Source: a virus. Taken from it: a stretch of 23,538 bases of DNA. Where the stretch lies: positions 1 through 23,538 of IMG/VR virus record IMGVR_UViG_3300025711_000028; one strand, 5' to 3'. This document shows positions 6,796 through 9,838 of this stretch, piece by piece. The notes under the pieces were generated by a model, which saw only the letters and a list, made by a program, of their open reading frames with translations, was not told where the DNA came from and ran no database searches. Within the stretch, counting starts at the first letter, position 1. Each line of letters starts with the position of its first letter. The position numbers were made by a program, and so were the translations under genes.

Positions 6796-7194
6796 TCATT
6801 GCATCGTGGGTGATAAGTCCATGCTCATTGATGAGTCGATGGATATCCTGAATTTCTTGGTGGCACCAGCCTTTATGTTTGCTTCACGCTCTTTCAGCCC
6901 ACTGCCGCATGATGATGCACCCACGATGTGCTCACCGGCGGCCACGTAGAACTTTGCAGTTTCACCAGCACCAATCTCGGCAGCTTTTCGCCCGTCGATG
7001 TTCACGGATGTGTTGCAGCCGCCACCAACAAAGCCGGAATCCCGGGTAACGATCAAGACAGCGTCACCGGATGCCGGCTTCTGATATGCGAACAGGCGCG
7101 AGCTCGGCACAGGGTCAGCCTTTTCGGAAGGCACCGGCGAAGTCGCACACCCAGCCAACAGCGCTACCGCCAACGCTCCTAAGATCAGTTTCAT
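6796..7194 (-). CDS. Predicted outer-membrane lipoprotein (moron)
   Basis: A 132-residue protein with a classic lipoprotein signal: MKLILG, a hydrophobic core, and the lipobox LLAGC with Cys16 as the predicted lipidated residue. Residue +2 is Ala, not Asp, which in Enterobacteria-type Lol sorting favours the outer membrane. The ATG at 7194 has AGGAG eight bases upstream; a GTG three codons earlier would overlap that site. The mature part is short and beta-like, with three further cysteines (GGGCNTS and SSCGSG), and AGEHIVG resembling the pG-H segment of DUF2846-type lipoproteins; that family link is tentative. It sits between terminators in an insertion between K and I. A role in altering the lysogen surface or excluding other phages is a guess from similar cargo genes, not shown by sequence. 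Confidence 0.8.
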   Translation of the reverse strand: MKLILGALAVALLAGCATSPVPSEKADPVPSSRLFAYQKPASGDAVLIVTRDSGFVGGGCNTSVNIDGRKAAEIGAGETAKFYVAAGEHIVGASSCGSGLKEREANIKAGATKKFRISIDSSMSMDLSPTMQ

Positions 7195-7243
7195 GCAGGT
7201 CACTCCTGTGGGAAAGGAAGCACGATATCACTGGCGCAGGCGG

Positions 7244-7274
7244 AAAAGAAAAAGCCCGGCGCTGGGCCGGGCTT
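7244..7274 (-). terminator. Intrinsic terminator after the P63C gene
   Basis: Minus-strand AGCCCGGC and GCCGGGCT arms (7273-7266 and 7260-7253) form a perfect eight-pair GC-rich stem with a five-base loop, followed by TTTTTCTTTT. It separates the P63C gene from the lipoprotein gene. Confidence 0.9.
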
Positions 7275-7291
7275 GAACGTGTCTTATACCA

Positions 7292-8266
7292 TCACTCTCT
7301 GAGGTCTAGGCTCTGTTGGCCGTAGATCTTTTCAGCGATGTATTTCTCATACTCAGCTCTCGAATCTGAAACCGTGGCGATACCAATGATTTTGCCGATT
7401 TGTGTCCGCAAAGCTTTCACACCAATCTCAGACAAAAACATGTGAACCTTGTCGCCCTTTTCGCCATTCACTTGCTTGCTCGCTTTGGCTAGATCAAAAA
7501 CTTTGCCGTGACTGCGGGCCAGTGGCTTATAGATATGGTCGATCGTCAAATACTTGAATTCCCAAGGACGACCCCGCTCTGGCTTGGTCAGCCCGTACAG
7601 TCGATACCATTGCTCATAGAGCTCAGGGGAAAATTCCTTTTCATATTCACGCGCTTCTTCACGGACATACAGCTTATATGCCTCGATGACCTCTTCTTTG
7701 GTGCGGTCATATCCGGCCAAGGCATATACCAAGCCTTGGATACCAGCTTTTGCCGATGCCCCAAGAATAATTCTGGCCTGATTAGCGATTCTTTGATACC
7801 TAGGACCCAATTCCCCACGACTGTCTGCCATGATCAAAGCTTGGCAAATATCGATGAGAAGACCTACCTCATAGCCATTTACTTGGCCCTGAAACTCCCC
7901 TTTCGCTCCTACGTGATCGCCCTTGAAAATCAATGGGTTATCTATCCTTTGGAGCAGTTCCGCTCCTAAGGCTTGTGAGACGATTTTCCCCTTTGCAAAC
8001 TTTGGGAGGGCAGTGCCGCCAGATTGCTCGTTCAATAGCATTACTGCCATGCCAATCTGACTGATCACCGCAGTTTTTGAATCGTCATCGAGAACGTAGC
8101 AGTCGACGTCAAGTCCAAAAGCTTCGGCAAAGTTTCCTTTATGGGTAACCTTATATCCCCACCTGGCGGCGGCTGCAGCCTTGGCGATAGATGAACGCTT
8201 TGAAGGCGTCAACGATTCCGCTCGCGCCTTGCCCCCAGCTGCTTTCGATACGTCTTTCTCTGCCAT
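7292..8266 (-). CDS. P63C-domain phage protein (moron)
   Basis: A 324-residue protein whose C-terminal third matches the phage P63C domain: FSPELYEQWYRLYGL, then YLTIDHIYKPLA, KVHMFLSEIGVKALRTQIGKIIGI and a helical end. The domain is widespread in phages, and its biochemical role is not known. The N-terminal region holds GGKARAESLTPSKRSSIAKAAAAARWG, a basic Ala-rich segment common in such proteins. The ATG at 8266 has GGCGGAG nine bases upstream; the in-frame ATG at 8308 has no site. Base composition is lower in G+C than the flanks (26 of 60 bases at 7621-7680 against 39 of 60 at 16321-16380 in the capsid gene), which suggests later acquisition. It has its own likely promoter with four palindromes and its own terminator, so it could be expressed in the lysogen. 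Confidence 0.75.
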   Translation of the reverse strand: MAEKDVSKAAGGKARAESLTPSKRSSIAKAAAAARWGYKVTHKGNFAEAFGLDVDCYVLDDDSKTAVISQIGMAVMLLNEQSGGTALPKFAKGKIVSQALGAELLQRIDNPLIFKGDHVGAKGEFQGQVNGYEVGLLIDICQALIMADSRGELGPRYQRIANQARIILGASAKAGIQGLVYALAGYDRTKEEVIEAYKLYVREEAREYEKEFSPELYEQWYRLYGLTKPERGRPWEFKYLTIDHIYKPLARSHGKVFDLAKASKQVNGEKGDKVHMFLSEIGVKALRTQIGKIIGIATVSDSRAEYEKYIAEKIYGQQSLDLRE

Positions 8267-8341
8267 GCAAGCATACTCCGCCAAGTTGTGCTTGCATTTA
8301 GCTTTCATTTTGCAAGCATGTCAATAGGATTAATGCTTGCA
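8266..8341 (-). promoter_or_regulatory. Promoter with four evenly spaced palindromic operators (P63C gene)
   Basis: A consensus -35 box TTGACA lies at 8324-8319 (minus strand); 17 bases further is the weak -10 candidate CTAAAT (8301-8296). The octamer TGCAAGCA or its complement occurs at 8266-8273, 8289-8296, 8311-8318 and 8334-8341, so with starts 23, 22 and 23 bases apart, about two helical turns. Two copies (8265-8274 and 8333-8342) have the full ten-base palindrome ATGC-WW-GCAT and the other two differ by one end base. One copy lies between -35 and -10, one touches the -10, one is upstream and one covers the start codon and the spacer after the ribosome-binding site. This is the layout of a repressor-controlled promoter, perhaps autoregulated. 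The repeats are seen; the function is inferred, and the poor -10 box is the weak point. Confidence 0.6.
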
Positions 8342-9087
8342 TTTTTATGCCGCAGTACCAGTCGAGTGCGATCCAGCCACGGCCCGCCGAAGACAATGAC
8401 CTCTGACGGCCTGCCGTACAGGTGGTGCAGCAGGAACGGACCGGGGCCGAAAGTGGCAGCATCCTCACCGGGCAGCATAGGATCAGTGCCAAGGAATATC
8501 CCGGCGTGGTTTGGGTAAACTGTGCGGCCCACCTCCATCACGATCATGTCACCGCGCTGCGGCTGGTCGACTCGGTAGAAGCCGGCAGCCTCGTAGTTCG
8601 CTTCGTACAGGCTGGTGTTGTCCTTGCTTTCCCACCAGCCATCGGCGCGCTTGAACGCTTCGAACTCCAGCCCCCACTCGCGCTTGTACCAATCGGCGCA
8701 TACCTGCCAGCAGTCCCAGGCACCGTGCACGAATGGCCGTTTCAGCAGCGGCACTTCACCAGTGGGCACGATAGTTCTGAGGTCGCCTTCCGGCCAACTG
8801 AGTATGTGCCAGGGCAATGCGGTCGCTTCGCACATCGCGAGGTCGCGCGGTGATGGCCTGCTGGTTGCGTCCGGATGCGAATGCACCACGCCGATCACTT
8901 CGCCGACGTCTTCGGCCGCCGCGTATTCCTCTGGGTCGATTCGAAATTCCTCGTTCGGCTCGGTAGACACGTTGCGGCACGGGTAATACCGCTGCTTGCG
9001 GCCCACAGCCAGCAGCAGGCCGCAGCACTCTTTCGGGTACTCGGCCGCCGCGTGCGCCTGGATGGCGCTCAAGATGTGCTTTCGCAT
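8305..9087 (-). CDS. K: Tail tip assembly protein K (JAMM + NlpC/P60)
   Basis: A 260-residue two-domain protein like lambda gpK. The N-terminal half is a JAB/MPN-type metalloprotease-like domain, with Glu20 (PKECCG), the His69-Ser-His71-Pro core and the following Ser79 and Asp82. The C-terminal half is an NlpC/P60 peptidase-like domain, with Cys126 in AWDCWQV and His194 in NHAGIF. It acts in tail-tip assembly and may process peptidoglycan or tail proteins on entry. The ATG at 9087 lies one base after the L stop and has GGAG five bases upstream; an in-frame TTG five codons earlier is less likely. Its last 37 bases contain part of the operator array for the next gene, so coding and regulatory sequence overlap. 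Confidence 0.88.
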   Translation of the reverse strand: MRKHILSAIQAHAAAEYPKECCGLLLAVGRKQRYYPCRNVSTEPNEEFRIDPEEYAAAEDVGEVIGVVHSHPDATSRPSPRDLAMCEATALPWHILSWPEGDLRTIVPTGEVPLLKRPFVHGAWDCWQVCADWYKREWGLEFEAFKRADGWWESKDNTSLYEANYEAAGFYRVDQPQRGDMIVMEVGRTVYPNHAGIFLGTDPMLPGEDAATFGPGPFLLHHLYGRPSEVIVFGGPWLDRTRLVLRHKNASINPIDMLAK

Positions 9088-9088
9088 G

Positions 9089-9838
9089 TCAGCTCCGTGC
9101 AATCAGGGAAACAGCCGGGAAGCCACCGAACGGCAGCGGGTTACCCTCTCCGAAGCGCGGGATGCAACCTTTTCCCAGCGTGGCGTCACACTCATCCAGC
9201 TCCGGGTTGTCGGTGACGATGCCGTCCTTGGTCACGTATGGACCGGTGTATCCGCAGTTCGGCCCACGGTAACCACCGGTGAGACACCAGTGGCAAAGGG
9301 TCGTGGCCTGCCGGCCGATCGATTCGTTACCTACGTCGCCCGGGCTGGCCAGCTCCCAACTAACGTTTTCCCCATCCTCGTTCGTCTTCTGGTCGATGTA
9401 CCAGACCTCGATCGTCTCTTGAGTTGGATCTGCCGTCGGATTGCCGGCTGGGAAGTTGGCGGCATCGAGGTAGCTGCCGAGCGTGTGGCGCATCGTCAGC
9501 TTGAACTCGAGCAGATCCTCGAATGCCAGACAGAGCGCCGTGATGCGCCCGTTGACGTTGCCCACCGATAAAGTGGGCCGAACGGCAGTGCCGTCGCCAT
9601 TCGCCTCGATGCCGTCGATCTGCATCGGCCAGGCGCTGTACTCGTTGCCCTGCCAGTAGATAGCCTTCGCTGGAAGCTGGTCGGCATCAGCGCCAGCAGC
9701 GATCAGTTCGGCTGGTGTATGCGGGATTGAGTGCCCGTGAAAGCGCAAAACATCCGCGCCGTACTCCGTGCCGTCCAATTCAAAGAGCAGCACTTCGCTG
9801 CCAGGCTCAAGCACCTGGATATCACTGATCAGCGGCAT
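9089..9838 (-). CDS. L: Minor tail protein L
   Basis: A 249-residue match to the lambda minor tail protein L family, a ring component of the tail tip. The N-terminal part is beta-rich (MPLISDIQVLEPGSEVLLFELD). The C-terminal part has the expected cysteines: Cys182 and Cys185 (CHWC), Cys195 (PNCGY), Cys217 (DECDA) and Cys225 (GKGC). Lambda gpL is known to carry an iron-sulphur cluster in this region, so the same is likely here. It lies between M and K in the standard order, with a nine-base gap behind M. Confidence 0.9.
   Translation of the reverse strand: MPLISDIQVLEPGSEVLLFELDGTEYGADVLRFHGHSIPHTPAELIAAGADADQLPAKAIYWQGNEYSAWPMQIDGIEANGDGTAVRPTLSVGNVNGRITALCLAFEDLLEFKLTMRHTLGSYLDAANFPAGNPTADPTQETIEVWYIDQKTNEDGENVSWELASPGDVGNESIGRQATTLCHWCLTGGYRGPNCGYTGPYVTKDGIVTDNPELDECDATLGKGCIPRFGEGNPLPFGGFPAVSLIARS

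Follow-up and report, generated by a model that had tools for sequence, protein, structure and literature searches.

The gene of the P63C family in the window (the whole stretch of DNA analyzed here, a 23.5-kb virus record of 23,538 nucleotides) is preceded by four copies of a palindromic octamer, which raises the question of what these sites do and which protein reads them. The gene product belongs to the P63C family by its match to PF10546 (E 2.9e-8, 34.7 bits against a curated cut-off of 26.1), and it also matches PHROG phrog_2384 (E 2.5e-80). Its neighbors are lambda-like tail genes, with K-like (JAB plus NlpC) and L genes upstream and the tail-tip gene J downstream, and it has the appearance of a moron that was inserted together with a promoter and perhaps a terminator of its own (Table 1). 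Shuffled sequences give 1.7 terminator-like hairpins on average and the real one gives two, which makes the hairpin behind the P63C gene suggestive at most. Between P63C and an I-like gene lies a small lipoprotein-like gene (6796-7203, minus strand) with a sub-threshold match to DUF2846, possibly a second moron.

Table 1. Features of the P63C locus in window coordinates; the four sites are lettered in the order in which they are met on the gene strand.
Feature	Position	Strand	Remarks
Site A	8334..8341	-	Reads TGCAAGCA on the gene strand; outermost, 5' of the -35, within the K ORF; slot conserved
-35 hexamer TTGACA	8319..8324	-	Adjoins site B; read from the sequence
Site B	8311..8318	-	Reads TGCTTGCA on the gene strand; within the promoter spacer
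-10 candidate CTAAAT	8296..8301	-	Final base shared with site C
Site C	8289..8296	-	Reads TGCAAGCA on the gene strand; at the predicted transcription start
Ribosome-binding site GGCGGAG	8276..8282	-	Between C and D; read from the sequence
Site D	8266..8273	-	Reads TGCTTGCA on the gene strand; final A doubles as the first base of the ATG
P63C gene	7292..8266	-	Likely 324 residues; starts at 8308 in the ORF list
DNA coding for the N-terminal two-helix segment	8159..8251	-	Residues 6-36; co-occurs with the array
Intrinsic-terminator-like hairpin	7252..7274	-	3' of P63C; stem of 9 pairs followed by a T-rich tail

The initial annotation had described four palindromic octamers on alternating strands at steps of 23, 22 and 23 bp, and positions, steps and strands are all exact (orientation +, -, +, - in window coordinates, from D to A). 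The window holds five exact copies in total, the fifth isolated at 1437. When the window was simulated 1000 times with a first-order Markov model, no 80 bp held more than two sites (two were reached in 7 of the 1000), and the maximum was one in 2000 simulations of the local 375 bp, against four within 80 bp in the real array; these simulations rule out a chance origin of the cluster. With one mismatch allowed there are 16 copies window-wide, fewer than in shuffled sequences (mean 27.5), and the unusual feature of the octamers is hence their clustering and not their overall abundance.

The start codon is likely the ATG at 8266-8264 and not the codon at 8308 chosen by the ORF caller, since GGCGGAG at 8282-8276 lies 9 nt ahead of it. 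All four sites are then upstream of, or on, the start codon, the first of them overlapping the ATG. Read along the gene strand, the order is site A, TTGACA, site B, CTAAAT, site C, GGCGGAG, site D, ATG (orientation A+ B- C+ D-), and the repeated sites overlap the -35, the -10 and the start codon. Of the promoter signals that had been proposed around the sites, TTGACA and a 17-bp spacer are real, whereas the candidate -10, CTAAAT, is weak (3/6) and a consensus scanner lists no promoter; support for the putative promoter comes from relatives, through the consensus of their -10 slot. Two octamers do fall within the K ORF (8305-9102) as had been noted, but only because K reads through at this point. 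At 8305-8341 the K-like tail gene runs through two sites and its tail ends in ...MLAK, while in the related locus L001 K stops just past the first site; the C-terminus of K seems to have been altered by the insertion.

Conservation beside related P63C genes was assessed in 22 readable relatives, obtained from a protein search (15 viral and six genome loci, with two of the 42 matching phage records added) after L015, which lacks its 5' end, was left out; L007 and L016 look like one sequence. At least two upstream TGCWWGCA sites are present in 22/22 relatives and all four in 14/22. The loss of conservation that had been named as refuting the operator idea is thus absent, and the surroundings of the array are unrelated across relatives. 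Its neighbor is the tail gene K in four cases (the window, L001, L003 and L021, as read from the sequence). In E. coli phage 611R6 the genes close by encode the antirepressor and the tailspike, and the P63C gene directly follows cI in SPN9CC and sits in the nin region in Nil3, where the repeated words are variants. Small plasmids of Acinetobacter, Deinococcus and Roseomonas also carry P63C relatives, and overall the array occurs on phage, plasmid and chromosomal DNA, its range taking in proteobacteria, Myxococcus, Deinococcus and, in part, Gordonia phages.

The layout was compared in 42 arrays, with the start codon as point of reference. Exactly four cores in the order + - + - occur in 30 of them, and in these complete arrays the A-B step is 20-24 bp, the C-D step 20-25 bp and the middle step (B-C) 30-32 bp in 25, 22 bp in four (window included) and 14 bp in one; some of these arrays had been retrieved by a pattern requiring a pair step of 20-26 bp, a bias from which only the loci found by protein search and the middle step are free. 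The even spacing noted for the window therefore holds there but is not general. A GCTTGC core lies 6-10 nt ahead of the start in 41/42 arrays, the exception being L011, in which site D carries one mismatch. The hexamer that ends at site C (T 79%, A 82%, N, N, A 90%, T 97% in 39 arrays) is, as judged from its consensus TAnnAT, the predicted -10 slot. Where the middle step of a complete array is 22 bp (the window, L001, L021 and L034), TTGACA directly precedes site B without exception, and in the longer arrays TTGC from site B can act as a putative -35. A middle step of 22 bp in place of about 31, shorter by about 9 bp or about one helical turn, goes with TTGACA 5' of site B, and helical phase is roughly kept. 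The logo of 156 sites is ATGCAAGCAT, although placing the sites by best octamer match favors the consensus; its AA/TT center is nearly fixed, which makes the orientation of a site meaningful. Being conserved in unrelated contexts and fixed relative to -35, -10 and start codon, the sites can be upheld as predicted operators on the P63C promoter, as had been proposed.

We then consider the protein itself. An AlphaFold model built from 43 sequences (mean pLDDT 80) has helices at residues 6-18 and 21-36, a mixed alpha/beta domain at about 40-175 and the helical P63C part at about 188-314. Residues 1-37 include eight basic and three acidic ones, and the N-terminal segment, for which Pfam gives no match, carries a motif of about 30 residues, GGxARAxxLTxExRxxIAxxAAxARW. 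Neither a Foldseek search with an earlier AlphaFold model (pLDDT 66) nor a PDB search with the pLDDT-80 model gave a match (no significant one in the latter case), and among viral structure models the matches are largely Bro-N proteins, weak and none with E <0.001. A second structural alignment returned DdrC (Z 6.0 over 87 residues, within residues 42-175) and, for the mixed domain, the fungal DNA-binding protein PCG2 (Z 2.8), both in the range of coincidence. The searches used the whole model and their rows cover mainly residues 132-175 and 187-316, so that the N-terminal segment, for which they show no DNA-binding relative, was barely sampled.

Many P63C genes have no array, and its presence follows the N-terminal motif. 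The motif was scored with a profile of the N-terminal ~31 residues of 16 sequences from alignment A1 (window and relatives), and P63C loci (L174-L212) were collected from sampled genomes (398, 369, 385 and 399 genomes). Within a fixed 150 bp either side of the open-frame start (the short or broken frames L190, L199, L200 and L201 left out), at least two GCAAGC/GCTTGC cores were counted at 16/20 genes with the motif vs. 0/15 without (p 1.9e-6). When the densest 110 bp of a 600-bp region was used instead (the fragments L190 and L198-L201 left out, the anchor of L174 set by hand), the numbers were 18/20 vs. 0/14 (Fisher 8.6e-8), and over all 62 rows, with phage, plasmid and relatives' loci added, 39/45 vs. 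0/17. This last count supersedes one anchored on the first codon of the frame (35/45 vs. 0/17), which missed genes with a long upstream frame. Two cores occurred in 13/285 control stretches and three in 0/285. P63C genes are kin and such counts overstate independence. In a tree built from the part of the protein after the motif, the motif state needs eight changes, six of them forced by starred branches. Among six independent pairs, a mean of 4.9 show array and motif changing together, and none shows the opposite direction (median sign test 0.06, with few pairs).

The coupling is most evident in a minimal pair. Paracoccus phage Pkon1 (L157) and L181 share 241/278 residues (87%); the N-terminus of the former begins MEQQSKQSKGGAARALKLSAQQRSEIARKAALARH and its gene has five cores, while the latter has a different N-terminus and no cores. 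SI8 (L164), 81% identical to the Pkon1 protein, has neither motif nor array, and the motif-negative L184, L186 and L187, with an N-terminus that is KilA-N-like by eye, also have no array. Judging by these last three, the N-terminal domain of P63C appears to be swappable. Six motif proteins without P63C (from Hoeflea, Acidiphilium, Mesorhizobium, a Rhodobacter phage, a Caulobacter phage and a Microbacterium phage; P63C absence judged by annotation and length) have no sites, which rules out the motif alone as carrier of the array. Small proteins of alphaproteobacterial plasmids (L146 1363-1599, L147 1366-1596, L149 1366-1596) have the motif at their C-terminal end, with no P63C part and no array; one is annotated as RNA-binding.

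The reverse approach, a DNA scan for the site pair, gave at least 120 viral loci. Among those listed, the pair almost touches the start codon (a few bases away at most) of an N-terminal-motif gene in 60/120; among the other 60, at least L029, L030 and L127 are motif genes whose start is farther away, and many of the remaining loci look like chance. In L091 (3925-3955 onward) the array is followed by a frame that ends after 40 residues and comprises the N-terminal motif only; truncation or a frameshift may account for this.

Six of the 45 motif-bearing genes (L179, L212, L155, L156, L161 and L162) are without two canonical cores. In five of these, other repeated words are seen by eye in place of the array: TTGCA-type words in L179 and L162, TGCTAAGCA in L161, ACTTGC/GCAAGT in L156, and GCGTGC with one GCAAGC in L155; L212 has a single core only. 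These words may be operator variants, and those of L156, L161, L162 and L179 are candidate specificity variants.

A strict version of the site pair was also sought genome-wide. It occurs 16 times in 10 of 30 P63C-bearing genomes, each time (16/16) at the P63C gene. In the 398-genome sample seven genomes have it, three at P63C and four as single pairs without a P63C match, which by our estimate is about chance level; the pattern is strict, and only 3/15 P63C genomes of this sample score. Under the strict pair pattern there is no P63C regulon, which fits a private operator.

Taken as a pattern in sequences, the four octamers probably form a dedicated P63C operator array, read by the N-terminal two-helix segment of the protein. 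The initial annotation had left the regulator open between P63C and a host or phage repressor; P63C is now clearly favored, because the sites track its N-terminal segment and strict pairs occur only at P63C in the 30 genomes, and a separate repressor is less likely. With about the same high confidence we take P63C to be the binder of the array, while repression as the sign of the regulation is likely, perhaps, but held less firmly. The two-helix segment would read the half-site GCAAGC and the full site described by the logo; copies of P63C on the two inverted pairs would cover -35, -10, transcription start and start codon, and the bound protein would block its own promoter, resulting in autorepression. 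Binding along the array may be cooperative. Promoter, array and N-terminal segment would then travel as one self-contained unit into phages, plasmids and chromosomes. The lambda-type OL/OR operators with CI/Cro have a similar layout, in which several near-palindromic sites, spaced by about two helical turns, overlap the promoter. As in lambda, the protein that occupies the P63C sites is probably encoded by the gene under their control. Unlike the lambda operators, the P63C sites have a different sequence, number four and reach the start codon, and the candidate reader is a two-helix segment without Pfam match instead of a CI/Cro domain.

The coupling could also arise without contact, if promoter and 5' end were co-inherited as a cassette, which would argue against P63C as the binder. 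Overlap with the promoter is as well a property of host-controlled operators, and GCAAGC resembles a LacI-type half-site, so that the sites might serve a different regulator, from the host or from elsewhere in the phage. This is unlikely given that the array spans phages, plasmids and chromosomes of diverse bacteria, depends on the N-terminus of P63C itself, being lost in the 87%-identical relative without the motif, and has no other strict pairs in the 30 P63C genomes. Sites A and B, and likewise C and D, can pair over about 9 bp; the loop of the C/D hairpin would contain the ribosome-binding site, and such RNA hairpins might hide this site and the start codon in read-through transcripts. However, the fold is no better than that of shuffles (z -0.88), C and D are consensus in 36/39 arrays and the other three are all non-complementary with none compensated, other P63C genes hold half-sites in different arrangements, and with the predicted transcription start at site C the latter would be mostly untranscribed from this promoter; lacking support from shuffles and from compensated changes, the hairpin reading is very improbable. 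Even less credit can be given to replication iterons or a recombination/homing target: steps near 22 bp resemble plasmid iterons and the motif matches weakly in phage intron-like endonucleases, but the position is fixed on promoter and start codon, the order is inverted and not direct, Pfam detects no Rep or nuclease domain in P63C, and the insertion sites are unrelated.

A more specific alternative is that the array is chiefly DNA for self-recognition or self-immunity, by which P63C, acting against the DNA of other phages, is switched off or tethered. The model for this is BstA, with a KilA-N-like domain, and aba, a short DNA element with terminal CCCGCC repeats that overlaps the bstA start, BstA variants having cognate elements (as described in PMC8585504). 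The P63C array likewise overlaps the start codon, and P63C occupies lysogeny-type slots: in the related P22-like phages SPN9CC (L163 1342-2571) and BTP1 (L169 28112-29035), P63C and bstA, respectively, take the same slot after cI. There is also a weak likeness between the KilA-N-like domain of BstA and the Bro-N/KilA-N-like middle of P63C. A profile comparison with BstA, aimed at common descent of the N-terminal domain, shows a weak similarity that does not suffice to claim a relationship (hhalign probability 20%, E 0.0012 over 125 columns). P63C as a BstA finds no support in PADLOC, Pfam or PHROG (a BstA positive control scores 1.9e-124), the window protein matches no PADLOC defense model, terminal CCCGCC direct repeats are absent from 8266-8341, and unlike BstA no defense activity is known for P63C. 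The sites are moreover tied to promoter elements, which pure immunity DNA would not need. We regard this alternative as quite unlikely, and the comparison with BstA as one of position and layout only.

An antirepressor- or defense-like activity would fit the need for a limited dose of P63C under the operator reading, and the lysogeny-type locations would fit too. The PHROG 'anti-repressor Ant' is matched by 14/34 P63C proteins (through the C-terminal part in the member shown), and Mx8 p63, from which the family presumably takes its name, is annotated as potential antirepressor; none of the 34 members matches the Bro-N, KilA-N or Ant Pfam families. To our knowledge neither such an operator array nor such an N-terminal segment is known for the Ant, Bro-N and KilA-N families. 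It is tempting to speculate, though unlikely to be correct, that P63C is a mobile prophage/plasmid self-versus-nonself family whose swappable N-terminal domain reads a private GCAAGC address. If true, the element would set its own dose and mark its own DNA, and the TTGCA-, TGCTAAGCA- and ACTTGC-type addresses would be separate specificity groups, like cognate BstA-aba pairs.

The array is undescribed in the literature searched (on P63C, the octamers, mobile promoters and antirepressor operators), a weak negative as most subscription papers fell outside its scope, and is not described in the accessible parts of PMC8585504, PMC6536676 and PMC13414232. What appears to be new is a predicted autoregulatory operator array together with a candidate recognition segment that is not listed in the family libraries searched. 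P63C genes, to which no function has been assigned, are common in phages, on plasmids and in genomes. With the array comes a molecular handle on them, namely a segment predicted to bind DNA, the word that it would read, and natural pairs in which both are present or absent, and a direct test of the binding of P63C to its own promoter becomes possible. It adds a small predicted DNA-recognition module and provides a DNA signature by which P63C genes can be found.
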